Of a stretch of DNA of 64,000 bases, positions 12,125 to 64,000 are shown piece by piece. Position numbers and translations under genes: made by a program. Position 1 is the first letter of the stretch, and each line of letters opens with the position of its first letter. Origin of the DNA: Longimicrobiales bacterium (GTDB lineage Bacteria; Gemmatimonadota; Gemmatimonadetes; Longimicrobiales; Gaopeijiaceae); contig OX639991.1 of NCBI GenBank assembly GCA_951828585.1, positions 3,070,576 through 3,134,575 of the forward strand, written 5' to 3'. The notes beneath the pieces are model-generated. The model ran no database searches, had not been told where the DNA came from, and saw only the letters and a list, made by a program, of their open reading frames with translations.

Positions 12125-15448
<3,324 letters not shown>

Positions 15449-15460
15449 TCCGTGGACAAT

Positions 15461-15575
15461 ATGTCAACTATACTTTACATAATGTAATGGTTCATTTACA
15501 TTACAGACAGCTTGACCGAGGCAATTCAGTGTGGATCCATCGCCGCTCGAATGCCGGGTGGGCTCCTTCCGCGGT
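15461..15575 (+). repeat. Dispersed repeat with ATTAC/GTAAT-type dyad, copy A
   Basis: An AT-rich segment with TTACATAATGTAA (a 13-base near-palindrome at 15475-15487) is followed about 50 bases later by ATCGCCGCTCGAATGCCGGG. The reverse complement of 43022-43138 has the same layout: an AACTAT box, the dyad, a similar gap and ATCGCCGGTCGAATGCCGGG. Copy A overlaps the 5' end of radC and may supply its promoter or operator. Alignment was done by eye. Confidence 0.55.
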
Positions 15576-16328
15576 TTGCTGAGGGGCTTGGTTACTTTCC
15601 GCGTCGACCCGGAAACGGGCGGTTTGCCCGGTGGGCTGCCCAGCCACGCGCACCCTCCCGAGGCCCGGCCCCGGGAGAGGCTCCAGCGCTTCGGCCCCGG
15701 CCCCCTCTCGGAGCACGAGCTGCTGGCGCTCGTCATCGGCTCGGGCAGCGGGTCGACTTCGGCGCGCGCGCTCGCCGAGAAGGTACTCGGCCTCTCGGGG
15801 GGCAACCTTCACGATCTCGCACAGATGGACCCGGGACGCCTGGTGGAGATTCCGGGGATCGGGGCGGCGGTCGCGTCGAGGATCGTGGCTGCGATCGAGC
15901 TTGGCCGAAGGGTGGGGTCGGCGCGTCCGAGCCGCGAGGACCCGATCACCGGTCCCGCCGACGTCCACGACATCTTCGCTCCCACTCTGGGCCACCTCGC
16001 CCACGAGGAGTTCCACATTCTCCTGCTCAACTCCCAGAACGTCCCCATCTGCCAGCGCCAGGTCACCCGTGGAATCCTGGACGCGTCGCTGATCCACCCG
16101 CGCGAGGTCTTCCGCGACGCGATCGTCCTCAGGGCCGCGGCGCTGATCCTGGTGCACAACCACCCCTCCGGGAATCCGGAACCCTCGGCGGAAGACCTGA
16201 AGGTGACCCGCCAGCTGTGCGACGCGGGGGACCGGATCGGCATCCCGGTACTGGACCACATCATCGTGGCGGGGGGGAGTTTTTCTTCGCTGGCGGGGAG
16301 AGGGTGTCTGCGGGGGGCGGGGGGCTGA
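15531..16328 (+). CDS. radC: RadC/YicR-family JAB metalloprotease-like protein
   Basis: 265 residues from GTG 15531. The N-terminal half has a helix-hairpin-helix region (LVEIPGIGAAVASRIVAA) and the C-terminal half the JAB1/MPN-type motif HNHPSGNPEPSAED (HxH...S..D zinc site). The function of RadC remains uncertain despite the historical link to DNA repair. The first 25 residues or so coincide with repeat copy A, so the true start could be downstream; no better start with a good binding site was seen. Confidence 0.85.
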   Translation: MDPSPLECRVGSFRGLLRGLVTFRVDPETGGLPGGLPSHAHPPEARPRERLQRFGPGPLSEHELLALVIGSGSGSTSARALAEKVLGLSGGNLHDLAQMDPGRLVEIPGIGAAVASRIVAAIELGRRVGSARPSREDPITGPADVHDIFAPTLGHLAHEEFHILLLNSQNVPICQRQVTRGILDASLIHPREVFRDAIVLRAAALILVHNHPSGNPEPSAEDLKVTRQLCDAGDRIGIPVLDHIIVAGGSFSSLAGRGCLRGAGG

Positions 16329-16550
16329 CGCGCAAGCCGTTTGGCCGCAAGGGAATAGCCCCAGGTTGCAGGAACGCCTGCACCGCTCTGGGCGGGGATA
16401 CGGGGTGCAAATGCACCGGGGGTGAAGTTATGATGACCGTGCTCGCAATGAATGGGACGTTGGCGCGTACCAGAACAGTCTGAAGTGCGCGCTCCCCGGC
16501 CGCGGTTCGACCCGTGGCGCACCGACGTATCAGTCGCAGAAAGGACACTC

Positions 16551-51182: not shown

Positions 51183-52034
51183 TCAGGCCGCATGGTTGAG
51201 TTTCTCGAAGTCCGCCGGCGATTCGTAGCCGAGCGCGGAGTGGAGTCGGCGGGTGTTGTAGAAGCCCTCGATGAATTGGAAGACTTCACGCCGCGCCTTG
51301 GCCACCGTCGGAAAACGCCGCCGGTCGATGAGTTCGCACTCGAGCGTGGCGAAAAAGCTCTCACACATAGCGTTGTCGTATGCGTCGCCCACCGAGCCCA
51401 TCGACTGCGCGATGCCCGCCTCGCGACAATGCTCCCCGAACGCCAGCGACGTGTACTGCGAGCCTTGGTCGGAGTGATGGACGACTCCACCCCTCGGCTG
51501 GCGGCGGCGGACCGCCATCTCCAGCGCGGCCCCGACCAGCTCGGCCTTCATGTGGGGTGCCATCGCCCAGCCGACGATCCGCCGGCTCCAGGCATCGAGC
51601 ACCACGGCGAGGTACAGCCAGCCGGTCCAGGTGGGCACGTACGTGATGTCCGCCACCCACAGTTGGTCGGGACCCTTGGCCGAAAAGTCCCGGTTCACCA
51701 GGTCCGGCGCGGGCTCGGCCTTGGCGTCCCTCTTCGTCGTGCCCGTCTTGAATCGCCTCCGCGTCACGCCCTCGATGTCCAGCTCCCTCATCAGGCGTGC
51801 CACTCGCTTCCGGCTCACACGCTCGCCGTCGGCCAAGAGCGCCGCGTGGATCCGCGGGCAGCCGTAGGTCTCGTCGCTGTCGCGCCAGATCGCCTTGATC
51901 CTGACCTTGAGCTCGGAGTCTCGCCCCGCTCGCGCCGAGGGCGGACGGTTCAGCCAGCCGTAGTACCCGCTGGGGGAGAGACCCAGCACCCGGCACATGG
52001 CTGCAAGCGGAAAGGTTGCCCGGTTCGCCTTCAT
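51183..52034 (-). CDS. IS3-family transposase, OrfB
   Basis: 283 residues. An HTH_21-type region (ETYGCPRIHAALLADG, RKRVARLMRELDIEGV) is followed by the rve core: Asp in WVADITYVPTWTGWLYLAVVL, Asp in VVHHSDQGSQYTS and Glu in NAMCESFFATLECELID. It overlaps OrfA by four bases. An A7G run in OrfA just upstream (52091-52098) is a candidate -1 frameshift site to make the OrfAB transposase. Confidence 0.92.
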   Translation of the reverse strand: MKANRATFPLAAMCRVLGLSPSGYYGWLNRPPSARAGRDSELKVRIKAIWRDSDETYGCPRIHAALLADGERVSRKRVARLMRELDIEGVTRRRFKTGTTKRDAKAEPAPDLVNRDFSAKGPDQLWVADITYVPTWTGWLYLAVVLDAWSRRIVGWAMAPHMKAELVGAALEMAVRRRQPRGGVVHHSDQGSQYTSLAFGEHCREAGIAQSMGSVGDAYDNAMCESFFATLECELIDRRRFPTVAKARREVFQFIEGFYNTRRLHSALGYESPADFEKLNHAA

Positions 52035-52348
52035 GAACGCATACCCCCGCCAGGGATCGATTCGCTCTCCCTCGCGAACCAGGCCGCGGCTTTTTTTAGG
52101 ATGTCCCGCTCCATCCTGAGCCGCTTGACTTCCCGCTTCAGCTCCCTCATCTCCTTGCGTGCCTCCGTCGTCAGACCGTCACTGCGCCGGCCCTCGTCCA
52201 GGTCCGCCTGCTTGACCCAGTTCCGGATCGTCTGCTGCGAAGGCTCGAACTCGCGTGCGAGAGACCCCGGACTACGCCCGGCTCTCACCAGCTCGACGAT
52301 ACGTTCCTTGTACTCGGGCGGATACCGCCCTCGTCTTCTTCCCGCCAT
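52031..52348 (-). CDS. IS3-family OrfA (helix-turn-helix protein)
   Basis: 105 residues: the HTH domain (YPPEYKERIVELVRAGRSPG, QQTIRNWVKQAD) and a leucine-zipper-like coil (EMRELKREVKRLRMERDIL). A run of seven A followed by G near the 3' end (coding KKAAAW) is the likely programmed frameshift site. AGGAGGTGAGTC lies upstream of the ATG. Confidence 0.9.
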   Translation of the reverse strand: MAGRRRGRYPPEYKERIVELVRAGRSPGSLAREFEPSQQTIRNWVKQADLDEGRRSDGLTTEARKEMRELKREVKRLRMERDILKKAAAWFARESESIPGGGMRS

Positions 52349-54560: not shown

Positions 54561-56435
54561 TCACACCCCCATCTCCCCCAGAAACTGCGACGCCCTCCTC
54601 TCATACCCGAAGTACTCCCGCGCCCGCGTCAACGTCAGCGTCTCCCGCGCCCGCGTAATCGCCACGAAGCAGCTCCTCCTCTCCTCCTCCACCTCCTCAC
54701 TCCCCGGCCCCCTCTGAAGCGCCCGGTACGACGGGAACACCTCCTGGGCCATCCCGACAAGGTAGACGTGCTCGAACTCGAGTCCCTTCGCCCGGTGTAT
54801 GGTGATGCACTGGACCGCGTTTGGCCCCGGAGTCGGCGCTTTGGACGAGAGGTCGAAATGCGGCAGATAGGCGTGCAGCGTGACCCCGGACCCGTGCTCC
54901 CGGATGATGTCGCGGTGCAGCGTTTCCCAGGTCGCGACTTCCTCGGCAGTCAACTCGGCAAGATCATCGCCACCGAGGGACTCCCACCCCTCCTCCAGGA
55001 ACCAGTCCACGACCCCAGGGAAGTTCAGCCGGTCCACCAGATCGGTACGAATGCGCTGCAGCAGGTCCCTCCCTTCCTCGCCCGCGGCGCCAGCCACATC
55101 GACCCAGGCTCGCAGGAAGTCGCCGCCGACCAGCGCGGCAACCGCTCCGACCGCATGGGGGTCCATCAGGACGCCCGTCAAGCGCTCCCACTCCCGGCAG
55201 ACTCTGCGCAGAACGACCCGGTCGTGCCGGGAATTGGCCAGCCTCAGGGCCTCGACCAGGACGGCGAGAACCGGGGAGTCGAAGTCACTCTTCCGCTGAG
55301 GCACGAAGGCCTCTTGTCCCGCATTGCGAAGGCCATCGGCGGCGGAGTGGACGAGGTGGTTCGTTCGAGCAAGGACTACGCAGTCGGCAGGCAGGAGTCC
55401 GCGCTCCCGAATATCGCGCGCCACAAACCGCGCTTCCGCGGCATGGGAGCCAAAGACCTCATGGCGCACGACACCCTCGTACGGGAGCCGAGGTTCGCGG
55501 ACCGAAACCGTCTCCTTGGCTTCGATCAGCCGGGGGTTGTGCGCGATCAGTCTATTGGCATGATCCAGGATCTCGGGTGGACAGCGATAGCTCTCGGGCA
55601 GTTGAATGGCCTCCAGTTCGTAGTCCCGGCGCAGGTCGCGGAACCGCTGGGGACTCGCTCCGTTCCACTGGTAGATGATCTGGTCGTCGTCCGCGACAAC
55701 GAACAGATTGTTGCGCTGACCCGGTGCGATGAGGCGAAGAAGGTCGTATTGAGCCCGGTTCGTGTCCTGGAATTCGTCGACGCAGATGTGCGTCCATCCC
55801 AGCCGGACCACCCGGGTAACCGCAGGCTTTTCCCGGAGCAGCCGGTTCGCGAAAAAGAGTAGGCTGCCGTAGTCCAGCCGGTTGGTGCTGATGAGCGCGT
55901 CGCAGTAGCGGCGGAAGAGCAGCGGCAACCACTCCGGCGTAGAGGTCAGCGACGAGGACCGGCCCTGGCCGCTGTAGGATTCTGAGAGCAGCCCGTCGAT
56001 GAGGTGGAGCAGGTTGTACCGGTCTGACGGCAGGTGCAGGCCACGGCCGGGAAGCTCGGCGATCACCTCGTCGAGGATGGCGACGCGGTCTTCATCTTGG
56101 GTGAGAAGCTGGAAGTCCGGTCGGATTCCGATGTGGCTTCCATGCTGCCCAAGGATGTCGGCCGCAAACTTGTGAAATGTGCACAGTTGGGCGCGGTCAG
56201 TGTGTTCGCCGAGGATGTGGTCCACCCGCTCCCGCATCTCCGCGGCCGCCTTGTTGGTGAAGGTGAGCCCGAGCGCCGCCGCGTTGTCGTCCTTTTCCAG
56301 AAGCTGGGCGAGCCGCAGCGCAAGCACGGCGGTCTTGCCGGAACCGGGGCCGGCGAGGACCAGAAGCGGACCCTCCTTCCACTCCACGGCGCGCCGTTGG
56401 TTCTCGTTGAGATCCTTGAAGGTGATCACTGCCAA
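54561..56435 (-). CDS. gajB: UvrD-like SF1 helicase (GajB-like)
   Basis: 624 residues. The Q motif is LNENQRRAVEW, Walker A AGPGSGKTA (28-36), Walker B CVDEFQDTNRAQYD, then DDDQIIYQWNGAS, LPESYRCP, ITIHRAKGLEFEHVYL and FVAITRARETL, so all SF1A motifs are present. It overlaps the OLD nuclease gene by ten bases. In Gabija defence GajB senses DNA ends and drives GajA; this copy is longer than the founding GajB (about 500). A repair helicase is the alternative reading. Confidence 0.85.
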   Translation of the reverse strand: MAVITFKDLNENQRRAVEWKEGPLLVLAGPGSGKTAVLALRLAQLLEKDDNAAALGLTFTNKAAAEMRERVDHILGEHTDRAQLCTFHKFAADILGQHGSHIGIRPDFQLLTQDEDRVAILDEVIAELPGRGLHLPSDRYNLLHLIDGLLSESYSGQGRSSSLTSTPEWLPLLFRRYCDALISTNRLDYGSLLFFANRLLREKPAVTRVVRLGWTHICVDEFQDTNRAQYDLLRLIAPGQRNNLFVVADDDQIIYQWNGASPQRFRDLRRDYELEAIQLPESYRCPPEILDHANRLIAHNPRLIEAKETVSVREPRLPYEGVVRHEVFGSHAAEARFVARDIRERGLLPADCVVLARTNHLVHSAADGLRNAGQEAFVPQRKSDFDSPVLAVLVEALRLANSRHDRVVLRRVCREWERLTGVLMDPHAVGAVAALVGGDFLRAWVDVAGAAGEEGRDLLQRIRTDLVDRLNFPGVVDWFLEEGWESLGGDDLAELTAEEVATWETLHRDIIREHGSGVTLHAYLPHFDLSSKAPTPGPNAVQCITIHRAKGLEFEHVYLVGMAQEVFPSYRALQRGPGSEEVEEERRSCFVAITRARETLTLTRAREYFGYERRASQFLGEMGV

Positions 56436-58039
56436 CCACCCTTGGAGAGGGAGAGGGCCTTTTCCAGCACGCTACGGAACTCTGGAGTCACGCCAGCCTC
56501 TTTTCGCCCCTCCATCTCGATTGCGATTTCTGCGGCCGCTCTGGTCTTCTGTCCCTTCCGGTGACGTCGGTACACCTCGGCGTATCCATTTGTTCTCAGA
56601 TGCTCTTCCATGTTGGGATAAGGGAAAGCAAACCTCTCAGACTCCTTGGCGCCAGCGAGATTCTCCCTCAACTTGGGCTCGTCCTTCGCCCGGTTGCCGT
56701 CATCGACCCCGACGCAGTACCAGGGGATTCCGAGCTGGTTGGCGACCTTGGTGAGCATGCCGACATCGGACTGCCTGAATTCCACCACCCGCACGCCTTC
56801 CCGGTGGAGGTTGCCGAGAGCGCGGGCGGCGGCCGGATACACCCAGGTCTCGGTCTCGCCCTCGACCAGGAGCCAGCACCGCGCGAACAGCAGTTCCCCA
56901 CGGGCGCGGCGAATGTGGTAGTTGAACTTCCGCGTTTCTTCCTGCGACAGAAACCCGGGCGGTACGTGGAATGCCTTGATCCCGTCCCTGGTTCGGGCGA
57001 GTCGGCGGATATCGTATATAGCGGTTTCCGCGAGAAGCTCGCCGCTGTGGGTCGAGATCAGTTTCTGGCCGGTAAAGCCACGAACGAGTTCCCAGAGTGC
57101 CCGGATTGCTGAAGGATGCAGATGGGCCTCGGGCTCCTCGAGTGCGAGCACCGCGGCGCCTTCCGTCTGGGCTTCCAGAAAGGCCGAAAACAGCATGAGG
57201 ACAGCGAGGCTCTGCGTTCCTTCACCGTGTCGCCCCAAGGGGATCTTCGCGCCCGTCGTCGTCCCGAGTTGCACCTGTGCTTTCGAGAGCATGTCGAACA
57301 TCCGGCTGGGTACGGCTTCGATGGAGACGGCTTCGCCCGCAGCCATTGGCACAACGGACTGCACCCGGCGGAGCCCGGCCTGCACTTGCTCGAAGCTGGC
57401 GTGCGAGGAAACGACAAGGTCATTCACCTCCTGGAGCTTGGCTTCGATCTCGGCCTTCCTGTCCGGCGAAAGTTGTGAGTCCGTGAGAAAGGGTTTCCAA
57501 AATGGTCCCCTGGCGTCGAAGTGCCTCGCGGCGTCACGCAGTGCTCGAAGGTAGAAGTAGCGAATCTCATCCTGCAGAACCGTGAGAGCACGGCGCTCGC
57601 GGCGACTGAGCGAGTCCCCCTTGAGATCCAGGAATGACCACTCCTGGACGAATTCCCCGCCTGACCGATCGTAGCGGGAGGTGACCCGCAGACGAACATG
57701 GTTGCGTCCCTCTTCGTCGATCTGCAGGACACGCACCCGATTCAGTCGGCCGACCAGTCCGTCGTCCCATTCATCGTCCGCGTGATCCGAGAACGCCACC
57801 TCGATCTCGATCGGCTCAGTGGCGGAGGGCTCGGCCTCACTGTCGGTCAGATGATAGTCCAGTGTGTCGAACACATGGCGCCGCCGGGGGCCGAGGTCCC
57901 GAAGGCAGAGCTTCAGCGCGTCGAGGACCGAGGTCTTCCCGGTGTTGTTCTCCCCGATCAGCACGGTGACCGGCCCCAACTCCAGGTCGAGGCTTCTGAT
58001 CCCACGGAAGTTCCGGATCCGAACGGCGGTGATCCTCAT
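56426..58039 (-). CDS. gajA: OLD-family ATPase/TOPRIM nuclease (GajA-like)
   Basis: 537 residues. An ABC-type ATPase N-terminus has Walker A IGENNTGKTSVL (from residue 28), then HGEGTQSLAVLMLFSAF (signature), VLALEEPEAHLHP (Walker B) and ISTHSGELLAE (H-loop). From about residue 385 a TOPRIM domain has LLVEGETETWVYPAAA and YCVGVDDGNRAKDEP; the second acidic motif reads DDG rather than the common DxD. A class 2 OLD protein paired with UvrD is the Gabija layout. ATP represses and phage DNA triggers cutting in the known system. Confidence 0.82.
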   Translation of the reverse strand: MRITAVRIRNFRGIRSLDLELGPVTVLIGENNTGKTSVLDALKLCLRDLGPRRRHVFDTLDYHLTDSEAEPSATEPIEIEVAFSDHADDEWDDGLVGRLNRVRVLQIDEEGRNHVRLRVTSRYDRSGGEFVQEWSFLDLKGDSLSRRERRALTVLQDEIRYFYLRALRDAARHFDARGPFWKPFLTDSQLSPDRKAEIEAKLQEVNDLVVSSHASFEQVQAGLRRVQSVVPMAAGEAVSIEAVPSRMFDMLSKAQVQLGTTTGAKIPLGRHGEGTQSLAVLMLFSAFLEAQTEGAAVLALEEPEAHLHPSAIRALWELVRGFTGQKLISTHSGELLAETAIYDIRRLARTRDGIKAFHVPPGFLSQEETRKFNYHIRRARGELLFARCWLLVEGETETWVYPAAARALGNLHREGVRVVEFRQSDVGMLTKVANQLGIPWYCVGVDDGNRAKDEPKLRENLAGAKESERFAFPYPNMEEHLRTNGYAEVYRRHRKGQKTRAAAEIAIEMEGRKEAGVTPEFRSVLEKALSLSKGGWQ

Positions 58040-58506: not shown

Positions 58507-58971
58507 TCACCCCCCACCGCCCCCAACAATCTCCCCTGGCGTCCGCTCCCTCAACCTGAACGGGTTGACCACCCGAACCTCCCCGAACGCATGCCCATGC
58601 TGCAAGTCTTCGGTCAACAGCATCGAGCAACCCAGGGATTGGGCCGCCGCGACAATGACGGCATCCCACCGCGACACGGAATGGCCGTCCTGCACATGCC
58701 AGGCGCGTTCCAGGATCTTGAGGTCGATCGCCACGGGTTGCCACACGGTGAGGTCCCGAACGATTTCGCGGGCCTCCGGCGGGTCGAAACCGATTCGCGC
58801 CTTGCCGGTCAGCATCACGTAGAGCTCCTGGAGGACCTGGAAGCTCAGGCGTCCGGTGCGGGCGCGTGCAAGGTGAGCGATCCACTCGTCGGCCCGAGCC
58901 TGCTTGGCCGGATCGCTACGGTCGTGACGGTAGACGAATACCTTCGTGTCAACGAAGACGAGAGCGGTCAT
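58507..58971 (-). CDS. PIN-domain toxin (VapC-like)
   Basis: 154 residues: ALVFVDTKVFVYRHDRSD (first Asp; Lys replaces the usual Asn of DTN), LSFQVLQELYVMLTGKAR (Glu), VSRWDAVIVAAAQSLG (Asp) and LLTEDLQHG. A Gly-rich end follows. It overlaps the antitoxin gene by 23 bases. Likely RNase toxin. Confidence 0.85.
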   Translation of the reverse strand: MTALVFVDTKVFVYRHDRSDPAKQARADEWIAHLARARTGRLSFQVLQELYVMLTGKARIGFDPPEAREIVRDLTVWQPVAIDLKILERAWHVQDGHSVSRWDAVIVAAAQSLGCSMLLTEDLQHGHAFGEVRVVNPFRLRERTPGEIVGGGGG

Positions 58972-59191
58972 ACAGTTCTTCCCGGGATGGCCGACGCCCG
59001 TCGGGCCAGTCGATCTTGCGAGGCTTTCTGGCCAGATACCGTTTCATGGCGATCTCGTAGTCGTCCTCGCGGTGCCGCTTCCGCTCCAGCAGTTCGCGGA
59101 TCCACCTGGAGACGCTGCGATCGTCTTCGGCGGCCTTGACCCTCAGCCACCGGGCGACATCCTCCGGCAAGGTGATGGTGATGTTCTTCAT
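58949..59191 (-). CDS. CopG/ribbon-helix-helix-type antitoxin
   Basis: 80 residues from ATG 59191 (AAGGAACATG context). The ribbon MKNITITLPEDVARWLRVKA and helices DDRSVSRWIRELLERKRHRE fit ribbon-helix-helix antitoxins; a basic C-terminal tail would contact the PIN toxin. The frame upstream of 59191 is not homologous. A 131-base gap separates the pair from the membrane cluster. Confidence 0.8.
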   Translation of the reverse strand: MKNITITLPEDVARWLRVKAAEDDRSVSRWIRELLERKRHREDDYEIAMKRYLARKPRKIDWPDGRRPSREELYDRSRLR

Positions 59192-59322
59192 GTTCCTTGT
59201 CCTTCTCCACAGATGCTTAGTGGCGACACGATTATCGTGAAACACGAAAACAGTGTCAAGCCTCGAGGCCGAGGAACTCCACGTTGTCCCGGCGGCCTCG
59301 TGGCCGGTCTGTCTTCCCCCCC

Positions 59323-60537
59323 CTACCACCGGAACCAGAACCTTCGCCACAACGCCTGCTGCCGCGCCTGAAACACCTCTTTCCGATCCCCCGTCGCATC
59401 CACCGGCCGGATCCAGAACCGGCATCCCATCGCCCCGAACGCCTCGGTCCTCGACACGCCCAACGCGTAGAACGGCTGCGTCACGCGCAGAAACTCCGTC
59501 GGCGAATACTCCCGCCCCTGCTCGATCGCCGCCGAATGCGTCGCCACCTCGCGATCACCCGCGATCCGGTGCCGGGGCGCGATCTTGAAGATCCGCATGC
59601 CCCGGTCGGTCAGCTCGATGCGAAACACGTACTCGGGATTGCCCTCCGCGTCGAGCCAGCAGGGTGGGGGATCGACGCCGCTGCCGCGGGTCAGTTGCTC
59701 GAGCTGCGTTTCCCGGTACTCGGCCCTTCCGACGGCATCGTCCCGCTCACGCTCGGCGTCCCATACCCGGCTGCGAAGCGTGTTCTCGCGGAAGCGGCTC
59801 TCGTCAAGCCCGGCACGCAGTGAATCGATCAGGGAATCCGGATCCGCCAAGAGCTGCTCCCTGGCACTGCGGAGCGCCTGGTCCAGGGTTCCGATCGTCG
59901 TTCGGGCGGTTTCCAGCGAGTCACGCAGCCCCGCCGCCTGGGCCGCCTGCTCGACAATCGCCTCAGCCTCCTCCGCGGTCAGTCCATCGCTGTCGGCCAC
60001 CCCGTCCGCCAACTGCTCGGCCACCTGCTCCACCTCCGCAAGCCGCTTCGCCAGCGAGTCCTGCAATGCGCTCGCCTCCCGCAAACGCCCCTCGCTCTCG
60101 GACGCCGCGTCCCTCAGCGAATCGCGCTCGGCCGCGAGTTGCACAGCCCGGTCCACCGCGTCGCCCGAAACCCCGCTCCCCGCCACCAGCGAGTCCGCCT
60201 CCGCCACACGCAGCATCGCCCGATCCCGCTCCCTCTCGGCGTCCTCCGCCCGCGCCTGCGCCGCCGCCACCGTGTCGCGCAACTGCCTCGCGTATTCGTA
60301 CCAGGCGTCCGCATTGCCCCAGGAGCTCGTTTCGGTGCCCAACATCTCCTGCGTGATGCGCAGATCGACCCTGGCGGTATCGAGCTGTGCCTGGGCCGTG
60401 TCACGCTGGAATTGCTCGAAGCGGAGCAGAACCGCGCACGCCAGCAGCAGAATGAACACGACGATGCTGAACGTCTCGGCCAGCGTCAGCCCCAGCGTCA
60501 GTCCCTTTCGGTAGTGTTTCTTCTCGGCGGGCAGCAT
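59323..60537 (-). CDS. MotB-like single-pass membrane protein with coiled coil
   Basis: 404 residues. A short basic cytoplasmic start and one transmembrane helix (LAETFSIVVFILLLACAVLL) are followed by about 220 residues of coiled coil rich in Ala/Glu/Arg. A C-terminal globular domain of about 110 residues follows (VFRIELTDRGMRIFKI, TEFLRVTQPFYALG, MGCRFWIRPVDATGDRKEVF). The topology resembles MotB/ZorB stator proteins but no OmpA-type peptidoglycan motif is visible. It is last in the four-gene cluster, 16 bases after the ExbB-like gene. Confidence 0.6.
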   Translation of the reverse strand: MLPAEKKHYRKGLTLGLTLAETFSIVVFILLLACAVLLRFEQFQRDTAQAQLDTARVDLRITQEMLGTETSSWGNADAWYEYARQLRDTVAAAQARAEDAERERDRAMLRVAEADSLVAGSGVSGDAVDRAVQLAAERDSLRDAASESEGRLREASALQDSLAKRLAEVEQVAEQLADGVADSDGLTAEEAEAIVEQAAQAAGLRDSLETARTTIGTLDQALRSAREQLLADPDSLIDSLRAGLDESRFRENTLRSRVWDAERERDDAVGRAEYRETQLEQLTRGSGVDPPPCWLDAEGNPEYVFRIELTDRGMRIFKIAPRHRIAGDREVATHSAAIEQGREYSPTEFLRVTQPFYALGVSRTEAFGAMGCRFWIRPVDATGDRKEVFQARQQALWRRFWFRW

Positions 60538-60553
60538 GCGTCCGGACTCCGGG

Positions 60554-62017
60554 TCAGGACTTGCGCCGGAATCTGGCCAGCCGCGCCAACCCCCGCCGCG
60601 TCAACCCCCTCCGCGCTTTCGCCATCGCCCGCCGGATCCGCGTGGTCCGCGACACCGCCGGCTCACCCGGCATTCCCACGCCCGCGGCCTCCCGCAATTC
60701 CTCGGTCAACCCGCGAGCCTGTTGCCTGGCGTCTTCCAGCGCACCGGAAAGCTCGGCCGACTGTTCCCCGGCCGCCGTCAGGTCCGCGTTCAGCTCTCGC
60801 GCCAGCCCGCGAACCGGCCCAATGCTCACGGTCAGTTCCGGCCCCACCCCACGCAGCTGCTCATTGATCGCGCGGGCCCTGCCGGGGACCGAGGCGAGCC
60901 CTTCCCTGGCGGCCTTCACGGACGCCTTCAGTCCGTCAAATTCGGCGTTCATTTCGCCCGCTTGCTCGCCGATTCCACGGATGCCCCGAGTCCCCACATG
61001 CAGTTGTTCCACCGCCTCCTGAAAGAGGGGCAGCACCCCGTGGCGGTCCACGGCGTCGGCGATCCCGGCAAGAGCCTGCTTCGCCCGATCCGCGCTTCCC
61101 CGCACGCCGGAAAGGGTCTTGCCGAACGCGGACACGGCCGCGTCGGTACTCTCCAAGCCCTGCAAGGTGGCGTTGACGCGTTCCGCGGCAGGCCCCGCAA
61201 CCTTGTTGATCGTGTCGAAGGTGCCCTCCACCTCGGCGAACTGCGCCTGCACGTCGTTGAAGCGCGTCCCGAGCCGCTCCGCGCGATCCTGCAGCACGGT
61301 CATGGCGTGAGCGCTCGCGCTGTAGACCGTCCTCAGCTGCCCCATCTCTTTGGTGAGCAAACGGGTCGCGCCGGCGATTCGGCCCGCGTATTCATCCAGT
61401 GCTTCGTAGGTCTCGGCCGTCTTCTTCGTTCTCTGCGCGATGATCTCGGCGATTTCTCCCAGACCGGCGGACGATTCCCCGAACCTGATGGCCATGCTTT
61501 CGAGGTCGTCGCGCGCCCGGTCGAGGCTCTCCTTCATCCGCGACACCGTCTCTTCGAGCTCAGACCGCGTGGTGTCCACGATGTCCCCGGGCGACTCGTG
61601 CGACATGGTGAACCAGACGCGGCCCGCGAGCCCGACAATGGTCGTCAGCAGCGCGATTCCGAAGTTCCGGATGGCCCCCGTGGTGCCGCTCGTATCGGTG
61701 CCGGGCGTTTCCCAATCGAAGGTGATCAGCCCGGCGATCATGGCGGCAAAGGTGAAGAGCAGGCCCAGGTAGTAGATCGACTCGCCCTTGGTATCCCCCG
61801 GGACATCGGCTTCGTCCACGAAGCGCCCGACGAAGAACGCATAGCCGATCATGACCGCGGCCACGAGCAACGCGACCAGCCACGGCCCCCCGCCGAAAAG
61901 ATTCCCGAAGACGATGACCAGAAAGCCAACCCCCAGCACCATCAGCCATGCGTCGCGGTGCTCCCTGAGCACTTCCCGGGATTGTGACGCGGAACGCTCC
62001 GCGGACGTAAGACTCAT
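60554..62017 (-). CDS. MotA/TolQ/ExbB-like membrane protein with long coiled-coil tail
   Basis: 487 residues from ATG 62017 (ATGA overlap with the upstream stop; GTG 62035 is an alternative). Four hydrophobic segments fall within residues 25-145. ESIYYLGLLFTFAAMIAGLITF and NFGIALLTTIVGLAGRVWF match the two pore-lining helices of the ExbB/MotA fold. A cytoplasmic tail of about 330 residues is almost entirely coiled coil and ends in a basic cluster. This is the layout of ZorA in Zorya defence, though no ZorC/D-type genes are adjacent in the window. Confidence 0.6.
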   Translation of the reverse strand: MSLTSAERSASQSREVLREHRDAWLMVLGVGFLVIVFGNLFGGGPWLVALLVAAVMIGYAFFVGRFVDEADVPGDTKGESIYYLGLLFTFAAMIAGLITFDWETPGTDTSGTTGAIRNFGIALLTTIVGLAGRVWFTMSHESPGDIVDTTRSELEETVSRMKESLDRARDDLESMAIRFGESSAGLGEIAEIIAQRTKKTAETYEALDEYAGRIAGATRLLTKEMGQLRTVYSASAHAMTVLQDRAERLGTRFNDVQAQFAEVEGTFDTINKVAGPAAERVNATLQGLESTDAAVSAFGKTLSGVRGSADRAKQALAGIADAVDRHGVLPLFQEAVEQLHVGTRGIRGIGEQAGEMNAEFDGLKASVKAAREGLASVPGRARAINEQLRGVGPELTVSIGPVRGLARELNADLTAAGEQSAELSGALEDARQQARGLTEELREAAGVGMPGEPAVSRTTRIRRAMAKARRGLTRRGLARLARFRRKS

Positions 62018-62886
62018 CCCTCCACCATGATCCACCTGGGTCGGGCCAGCGGCGACGCGTCCTGATCCACAAAGTAGTCCTCCCAGAAACCGCGCAGGGT
62101 CCCGCCCTGGATGCGCCCGGCCCCGCCCCGTCGCGCCAGCAGGAACACCGACACTTCGACGCCGGAGAGATCCACCCGCAGCGTCCCGTAGTTCGGGTTG
62201 CGCGAGAGCGGGCCGAAGTCCACGGGTTCACGGTAGAAGGACAGGTTCCGCGAGTTCTGAATCATGTCGGAGACGATGAGCAGCTGTCGCGGGATGTCGG
62301 CGGCGCGGGGCTGGAACGTGCTCACCGCGGCGACCTGTATCCCCTCCACGATCGGCGAGATCGAGTCGCCCTCCACATTCAACAGCGCGGCCAGCGTTTG
62401 CTGCAGCGGCGCCAGGAACTCGTCGCGATAGCGGCGCTCCGCGAGCATCGGATTGCCGGTTAGCGATGACACGTTGTCCGGGTGCGCGGGCTTGCATAAT
62501 CTCAATAGCGCGGATGTGTTCCCTCTGCCCGCCTGCCCGACGGTGAACACGCGTATCTCGGTCGTCACGGGCGCGTCTTCGATGGTTTGCAGGACGCGGG
62601 GCGCTCCCGAACCCTCCTGCACATTGGTCAGCGTGTCGGAGGGGTCGACCAGGATCGCGATCTGGGCCGCGTAATCCTCGTCTTCCGGACAGTTGACGGA
62701 GTCGAAGGCGCGGTTCTGGCGTTGGCCCCGAAGGAAGAGCACCACCAGAACCAACAACGCCAGCGCCCCGATGACGCCCCCGAGCACGTTCTTGCGCTTC
62801 GTCTCCTGCCTGCGTCTCGTCGCCCGCCCGCGGCTTGGTCCGCGCCCACGGCTTGACCCCCGCCCGCGCCTGCGGTCCCGCCTCAT
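62014..62886 (-). CDS. Single-pass protein with vWA-like domain
   Basis: 290 residues. A very basic Arg/Gly N-terminus (RRDRRRGRGSSRGRGPSR) precedes one transmembrane helix (GGVIGALALLVLVVLFL). The outer domain has a vWA-like metal site, AAQIAILVDPSDTLT (DxSxT-like), and RQLLIVSDMIQNSRNLSFY at the second site. Overlap with both neighbours (ATGA at each end) indicates one coupled transcript. Confidence 0.55.
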   Translation of the reverse strand: MRRDRRRGRGSSRGRGPSRGRATRRRQETKRKNVLGGVIGALALLVLVVLFLRGQRQNRAFDSVNCPEDEDYAAQIAILVDPSDTLTNVQEGSGAPRVLQTIEDAPVTTEIRVFTVGQAGRGNTSALLRLCKPAHPDNVSSLTGNPMLAERRYRDEFLAPLQQTLAALLNVEGDSISPIVEGIQVAAVSTFQPRAADIPRQLLIVSDMIQNSRNLSFYREPVDFGPLSRNPNYGTLRVDLSGVEVSVFLLARRGGAGRIQGGTLRGFWEDYFVDQDASPLARPRWIMVEG

Positions 62887-64000
62887 GTCGGCACGGCCTT
62901 GTCGTGGGGATCCAGCCTTGTGATTTCATTCACAAGCTCACGGCATTCGTCGTGGCAGTCCCTCAGCCTCTGCTCGCGTTCCTCCAGCGCCGCATGCATT
63001 TCACGGCTGCGCTGCTCCGCCTCCGCCTCGCTCATCAGGTCCGACTTCCGGGGCGCTTCCGGCAGCTCCCAGCCGACAACCCACGGGCTGTGCCAGATCT
63101 GCGGCTCCGGAGTCGAGCGGGCCTCCCTGTTGGCGGTCCGGTAGATGCCGAGCGCTCCGCCGCAACTCTTCTCCAGGTCACGCTCAAAGTCGCACAGATC
63201 CGTGTGCCGTGCATGCAGCTTGTTGTAGTCGTTCAGCGCGAGCCTCCGTGCTTCGACCGGATCGCGGAAGTCGTTTCGCAACTTGAGCGCCGCCTCGTTG
63301 TGGAGCTCGTTGAGCTGGCTCAGCAGGTCGCGGCGCTCGTCCTGCAGCCTCTCGTCGGTCTTCCGGCGGTGCCGCTCCCGCCGCCCGTATCCGGGGTACG
63401 GGTCGTCGGTCTTGAACCAGTCAATGGCGGCCCCGGCGCACATGGCAAGCCCGATCAGGAGAAGCATGTACGAATAGAAACCGTTCAGCCCGAACGGACT
63501 GGCGCGGAAGAGACAGAGGGCTTCCTGGTCGGCGTCGGTCTCGTCGGGGCCCCGCCAGCAGGTTTCGGGCAGGGAGTCGGCCTGTGGAGACTGGGCGACC
63601 AGGGTCGTATCGGGAGGAACGGGATAGTCCGGCGGCAGAGCTTCCCTGTAGTGGGCCACGAACAGATTCCAGAACACGGCGACCCCCACGACCGCGAGTC
63701 CTCCCACCAGCCCGCCGATCCGTCGCCGTGGATCACGGTGGTTGACCTGGCGCGCCATTGCGGCGAGCACCCCACCGAGCACAGCCACATTGACGACGCT
63801 GATCAACACCGCGTAGCTCGTGCCGGCCAGCAGCCCGCCCTCGACGTTGGCGCCGAAGAAGAGCCCGTTGACCAAGGTTTCCACGACGATCAGCGCAAGC
63901 AGGATTCCCCAGTGCCAGACGCGGCTCGCCGGGTAGTCCGCGTCGGCTGTCCGCCCCTCGTCACGCTTGAAACGATTGACCTCGCCGACCGCGTGCTGGG
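62883..64000 (-). CDS. Multi-pass membrane protein, 5' end outside the window
   Basis: The frame is open to the right edge, so the start lies beyond 64000; GTG 63884 is internal. At least 372 residues: a hydrophobic pair (VWHWGILLALIVVETLVNG, then LAGTSYAVLISVVNVAVLGG), a third segment (IGGLVGGLAVVGVAVFWNLF), a periplasmic loop with two Cys and a fourth segment (YSYMLLLIGLAMCAGAAIDW). A long cytoplasmic helical region ends it. Not recognised; it is first in the membrane cluster and coupled by ATGA to the vWA-like gene. Confidence 0.6.
   Translation of the reverse strand, partial: QHAVGEVNRFKRDEGRTADADYPASRVWHWGILLALIVVETLVNGLFFGANVEGGLLAGTSYAVLISVVNVAVLGGVLAAMARQVNHRDPRRRIGGLVGGLAVVGVAVFWNLFVAHYREALPPDYPVPPDTTLVAQSPQADSLPETCWRGPDETDADQEALCLFRASPFGLNGFYSYMLLLIGLAMCAGAAIDWFKTDDPYPGYGRRERHRRKTDERLQDERRDLLSQLNELHNEAALKLRNDFRDPVEARRLALNDYNKLHARHTDLCDFERDLEKSCGGALGIYRTANREARSTPEPQIWHSPWVVGWELPEAPRKSDLMSEAEAEQRSREMHAALEEREQRLRDCHDECRELVNEITRLDPHDKAVPT

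Follow-up and report, generated by a model that had tools for sequence, protein, structure and literature searches.

A four-gene cassette at the right end of the window

Four genes, here called A, B, C and D, lie on the minus strand at the right end of the window, by which we mean the whole stretch of 64,000 nucleotides analysed, part of a 4.47 Mb genome in one contig. A first reading made from the letters alone (the sequence-only reading) had described a four-gene membrane cluster at this place, and we recovered all four genes there (Table 1). It had also taken the genes to be coupled by ATGA overlaps; such overlaps are present at the A/B and B/C junctions, but 16 nt lie between C and D. Gene C encodes 487 aa from an ATG at 62017, or 493 aa from a GTG at 62035. 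The multi-pass protein that the sequence-only reading had proposed is A, which has four predicted transmembrane (TM) segments but is not complete in the window; adjoining genome sequence completes it to 478 aa. A look beyond position 64000 for more partners had been put forward as a check. About 430 nt upstream of A we found a separate block, which encodes an ABC transporter of the sugar type and two uncharacterised proteins that are related to each other. One of the two related proteins was scanned and matched no Pfam family; the pair (L005:7322-10683) is also present in a second locus (L025).

Downstream of the cassette are a toxin-antitoxin pair (RHH/PIN) and a Gabija pair that is complete, both of which had been recognised from the letters; PADLOC matched GajA at 1e-177 and GajB at 9e-204. 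The GC content of the Gabija pair is 0.638, as against 0.67 in the rest of the window. To its left is what looks like an IS3-type transposase pair, which fits a variable region. A PIN/RHH pair 87-93% identical to that of the window lies downstream of the cassette in a congener genome (L028:3811-4531).

Table 1. Positions of the cassette genes, of selected residues and domains, and of neighbouring genes
Feature	Coordinates	Strand	Basis or remarks
Gene A	62883..64000, continuing to window coordinate 64319	-	No Pfam, NCBIfam or convincing PADLOC match
Gene B	62014..62886	-	290 aa; AlphaFold model, Foldseek/VIA matches, alignment of 30
Gene C	60554..62017	-	AlphaFold model of residues 1-210, fold matches, profile matches
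C pore threonine codons, T89 (61751-61753) and T126 (61640-61642)	61640..61753	-	Last two TM helices
Gene D	59323..60537	-	404 aa; single TM, coil, C-terminal PPCW domain
D Glu21 codon	60475..60477	-	Sole conserved acidic residue within TM helix
D C-terminal PPCW domain	59323..59688	-	11-sequence alignment, two invariant Cys
PIN toxin with RHH antitoxin	58507..59425		
Gabija pair	54561..58039		GajA 537 aa, GajB 624 aa
IS3-type transposase pair	51183..52348		Assigned by look
SNase genes near cassettes	L034:5283-6119; flanks of L046, L077, L079, L082, L097, L098, L099, L103, L104, L106, L108, L114		
Defence genes near Gemmatimonadota cassettes	Window; L030; L034; L026		Gabija; DrmD-like helicase; SNF2 helicase; type III methyltransferase, respectively

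Conservation and mobility of the cassette

To judge from their distribution, the four genes belong together, as had been claimed. All 10 further Gemmatimonadota loci that were retrieved in full keep the order A-B-C-D. Scanning genomes with A gave 141 relatives, from which 80 loci were kept with a bias towards kin of the rhizobial query, nearly all of them from Alphaproteobacteria; A-B-C-D are in order in 79 of these 80, and the remaining one is a truncated contig. Genes in unannotated loci were called with a simple script rather than a trained gene finder. Distances between A, B, C and D proteins correlate (Mantel r 0.85-0.95, 0/999 permutations). Because the same four genes recur in order and with correlated divergence, we conclude that their grouping is not due to chance.

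The B gene is present in 12 of the 200 Gemmatimonadota genomes sampled and in 8 of 15 sampled genomes of the window's own genus; in a larger sample of that genus, 14 of 23 genomes carry the PPCW domain of D. Flanks are mostly unrelated between congeners, though the window's upstream block is common to one congener and its toxin-antitoxin pair to another. With tblastn we found B in 22 plasmids and A in 24, from Rhizobium, Sinorhizobium, Microvirga, Paracoccus and Tistrella, with the same A-B-C-D order in the plasmids inspected; 15 of the 24 cassette plasmids were typed as conjugative or mobilizable. The cassette was not found in the phage records searched, and its sole match to a viral contig (L182) turned out to duplicate a contig of a Faunimonas genome and was discarded. 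The sequence-only reading had named a conserved housekeeping operon as the outcome that would undo its proposal. This possibility is ruled out, because only some genomes of one genus carry the cassette and its flanks differ. The four genes travel together, carried by plasmids or lodged in variable parts of genomes. In some Rhizobium clades the cassette is widespread and may be inherited stably.

Protein C resembles ExbB, TolQ and ZorA channel subunits

Protein C has four TM helices followed by a coiled cytoplasmic tail about 340 aa long, in agreement with the long-tailed channel of the ExbB/MotA/ZorA kind that had been predicted. We compared an AlphaFold model of residues 1-210 (pLDDT 69.6) with known structures. 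By VIA, the best match of TM2-TM4 was ZorA (8vvi; Z 11.0, 2.4 A over 98 residues, C 44-145), and ranks 1-4 were all ZorA (Z 11.0-9.8, 2.3-2.6 A, 98-102 residues). TolQ, ExbB, PomA and MotA followed at Z 7.7-9.1, further down and interspersed with designed helical bundles. Helical models reach middling Z by chance. The first 8 Foldseek matches were likewise all ZorA, ExbB or TolQ, with E-values all above 0.001. In this model C has the pore fold of MotA/TolQ/ExbB/ZorA subunits, with support that is moderate because pLDDT is 70.

Single-sequence Pfam, NCBIfam and PADLOC matches of C and D were rejected as coiled-coil noise, and for this reason C was scanned by its TM region alone. PADLOC on the coil-free TM regions of several members gave ZorA2 models as the main matches (best E 1.1e-4). 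The profile match to ExbB/MotA that had been expected failed at the level of single sequences, where no NCBIfam MotA_ExbB match was obtained and no C member scanned reached the cut-off of Pfam PF01618 (MotA_ExbB), but it was recovered by profile comparison. With hhalign, C aligned to the ZorA and ExbB alignments in the same register each time, at P 0.0004 to 0.0021 and with low probabilities of 13-36%; the control with protein A was weaker (P 0.025-0.13). T89 of C is present in 30 of 30 aligned members and T126 in 29 of 30, both are conserved across the 79 loci, and both align with the pore threonines of ExbB, TolQ and ZorA.

Protein D has a MotB-like membrane helix and lineage-specific C-termini

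Protein D has one N-terminal TM helix of the MotB/ZorB kind with an invariant T18-x-A-E21, followed by a periplasmic coil and a C-terminal domain of about 115 aa (PPCW), which corresponds to the coil partner with a new-looking C-terminus that had been proposed. T18 and E21 are found in 30 of 30 aligned members, and the Glu in 78 of 79 loci. MotB, ExbD and ZorB have Asp at this place, where it is needed for ion flow (PMC11890865, PMC12204202), and Glu21 of D is a candidate proton-binding residue.

The C-terminus differs between lineages. OmpA (PF00691) is present in 24 of the 30 aligned D proteins, which is the number of proteobacterial members, whereas the six Gemmatimonadota members, the window's included, carry the PPCW domain instead. 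A Pfam scan of the window's D found no OmpA/Pal-type peptidoglycan-binding domain. The PPCW domain (two invariant Cys in 11 sequences) has no match in Pfam or NCBIfam, and none was found in plasmids or viral contigs. Two further genomes of the phylum hold weak remnants of it. Distant PPCW domains elsewhere in Gemmatimonadota (L149, L150, L152) indicate that the domain is wider than the cassette, and in genome G002 it is split across two frames, like a decayed gene.

Protein B has a vWA fold in its model and A is a four-TM protein

Protein B had been described as vWA-like and single-pass, and its AlphaFold model (mean pLDDT 85.6) agrees, with a vWA alpha/beta fold at residues about 69-290 that matched vWA/integrin I domains by Foldseek and VIA (Z 11-12). 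B is an N-in signal anchor. Its N-terminus is strongly basic ahead of a single TM helix, VLGGVIGALALLVLVVLFLRG, and the vWA domain should therefore be periplasmic, with which the two invariant cysteines, Cys66 and Cys131, are compatible. The metal site is degenerate: in an alignment of 30, D81-x-[S/T]-D84 is conserved, the third MIDAS position varies and the canonical DxSxS...T...D is absent. In the window's B the site reads D81-x-S83-D84 ... S177-P-I ... S206-D207, with S177 and D207 sitting where the other two MIDAS loops would be expected. Protein A has a long soluble N-terminal part, its four predicted TM segments and a coil-rich C-terminus, with conserved motifs N-L-x-x-AHYRE, DPYPGY and YRxANxxAR. 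A, B and the C-terminus of D lie outside the Pfam, NCBIfam and PADLOC families and are new in this sense.

SNase and defence genes among the neighbours

Among Pfam families, SNase (PF00565) occurs most often in the genes flanking alphaproteobacterial clusters. Its profile matched 24 times in 366 kb of near flank vs 2 times in 800 kb of far flank; up to 2.5 kb from the cassette the matches are 26-fold denser than at greater distance (P 1.3e-10 counted by locus and 1.2e-4 counted by cluster). The SNase genes lie on either side and on either strand and mostly have signal-like N-termini. About half of the clusters have one adjoining the cassette; the other half and the window have none. A distant Gemmatimonadota locus (L034) also carries one, and plasmid records agree, with SNase beside the cassette in further plasmids.

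Enrichment near defence genes had been put forward as a check, and the outcome is suggestive: such genes flank 4 of 11 Gemmatimonadota loci vs 0 of 10 control regions (one-sided p 0.055), the control being a small set of ten arbitrary regions from the same or related genomes that gave only generic PADLOC matches. The alphaproteobacterial flanks, scanned without a control, contain one strong match to GajA and a small number of further PADLOC matches; secreted SNase is the strongest neighbour there, and few flanking genes are classical defence genes. On a plasmid of Sinorhizobium fredii, CHAT-domain and DUF4041 genes lie in the vicinity of the cassette (L194:6754-7815, 14983-16458). At another locus an SH3-domain protein, a possible envelope partner, adjoins the cassette (L193:13631-14389), and PF08239 is present in 3 flanking genes of other loci.

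Comparison with known ion motors

Ion motors of the 5:2 type drive flagella, Ton, Tol, gliding and Zorya systems. Kinship with ZorAB, together with partners foreign to Zorya, had been noted from the letters, and both points are borne out. C is closest in fold to ZorA and shares its long cytoplasmic coil, D and ZorB each have one TM helix with a conserved acidic residue, proteobacterial D and ZorB each have an OmpA/Pal-type wall domain, and the polar Ser/Thr ring of the pore is common to both (ZorAB features from PMC11890865). However, C has one extra N-terminal TM helix and lacks the cytoplasmic insert between the first TM helices of ZorA, the acidic TM residue is Glu in D and Asp in ZorB, and the window's D ends in PPCW rather than OmpA. 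The cassette also has two obligate extra genes, for the vWA protein B and the four-TM protein A, neither of which matches any Zor model. In Zorya, ZorB binds the wall and ions flow, and defence requires the ZorA tail and an effector (PMC11890865). The cassette has no ZorC/D, ZorE or ZorF/G and no cytoplasmic nuclease in the operon, and none of zorC/zorD, zorE or zorF/zorG was among the window neighbours scanned. As the Zorya effector genes are absent, we ruled out membership of Zorya and class the cassette with the 5:2-type ion motors.

With TolQR, ExbBD and MotAB the cassette shares the pore fold and threonine positions of C; it differs in that C falls below Pfam MotA_ExbB, lacks a cytoplasmic torque domain and has a long tail, and in its gene set. 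Force transducers with a vWA domain have been proposed beside tolQ-like genes, in a study that describes two vWA-motor pairings other than the present one (PMC12204202). They share with B an inner-membrane-anchored, periplasmic vWA domain encoded beside a TolQ-like gene, but B has neither the SHLS motif nor the acidic TM residue that mark the two vWA classes of that study, and the cassette adds a separate MotB-like axle (D) and the four-TM protein A. The text of that study does not mention Gemmatimonadota, rhizobia or nucleases.

A possible barrier to foreign DNA and its alternatives

We hold with moderate confidence that C and D form an envelope motor with A and B as obligate partners, and that it most likely serves to bar foreign DNA. 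The architecture has good support; the motor assignment draws on fold and conserved residues, and the defence role is one that we infer from mobility, kinship and neighbours. C and D would make up a 5:2-type motor that sits in the inner membrane and is driven by ions, with C as a pore ring bearing the long cytoplasmic tail and D as a two-copy axle that has the Glu in its TM helix and may grip the wall with its periplasmic C-terminus, through OmpA in Proteobacteria and through PPCW in the window's lineage. By analogy with Zorya, the motor would consist of C-D, and D would sense the wall. A and B probably regulate the motor or relay force or state in the periplasm and cytoplasm. Entry of a phage or plasmid would disturb the wall, upon which D would engage, ions would flow, the complex would change state and a partner would destroy the incoming DNA. 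In many lineages the product of the adjacent secreted-SNase gene is probably this partner.

Read most economically, the cassette would encode an envelope motor by which disturbance of the wall is linked to periplasmic events, for use against incoming DNA. We regard as possible, if doubtful, the more specific proposal of a new, periplasmic, proton-driven class of anti-DNA system, in which a ZorAB-like motor with a dedicated vWA and a four-TM subunit would sense wall disturbance as DNA enters and activate or position a secreted nuclease of the SNase type. Counting against a defence role are a neighbourhood of defence genes that is only suggestive (p = 0.055, small control), the scarcity of classical defence genes in alphaproteobacterial flanks, the possibly stable inheritance in some Rhizobium clades, an operon that, unlike Zorya, has no cytoplasmic nuclease, and the lack of SNase in half of the clusters and in the window.

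The same parts could instead serve the envelope itself. A force transducer like Tol-Pal or Ton, in which C-D would drive B on outer-membrane or wall parts for envelope upkeep or stress and have no part in defence, would suit an inner-membrane-tethered periplasmic vWA protein such as B, the OmpA wall-binding domain on proteobacterial D, the SH3_3 proteins among the neighbours and the vWA transducers proposed beside tolQ-like genes (PMC12204202). We nevertheless think it rather unlikely, as the cassette is patchy, plasmid-borne and variably flanked, unlike an upkeep operon, is enriched beside secreted SNase genes and encodes a B without the two marks of the published vWA classes.

The SNase association could also speak for energised uptake or scavenging, for example of extracellular DNA, with SNase cutting the DNA and the motor powering import across the envelope; a wall-anchored motor and a periplasmic vWA binding domain would be in keeping with this. 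An outer-membrane receptor, a binding protein or a transporter is never a constant neighbour, however, and half of the clusters have no SNase, so that we consider uptake improbable. Still less probable is a device for surface or contact sensing or for motility, related to the AglRQS gliding motor, even though gliding is a setting in which vWA-partnered motors of the family are known or have been proposed (PMC12204202). The recurrent neighbours include no gliding genes, and many carriers are rhizobia and Paracoccus. To our knowledge, these bacteria are not known for gliding.

We found no description of the four-gene cassette in the literature searched; present in two distant phyla, it appears to be a new ion-driven envelope machine, kin of the Zorya motor. 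A portable 5:2-type motor encoded by four genes, with a vWA protein in the periplasm and a secreted nuclease as a repeated neighbour, would widen the known roles of ion motors and could reveal a defence that acts before DNA enters the cytoplasm. With carriers in Rhizobium, Sinorhizobium and Paracoccus the cassette can be tested in laboratory strains.

ZorA2-model matches in Gemmatimonadota proved to be other ZorA-like genes, without the PPCW domain. Six such loci (L117-L122) encode ZorA-like proteins of 547-781 aa, followed in L117 by a MotB-like gene, and are candidates for Zorya types in Gemmatimonadota.
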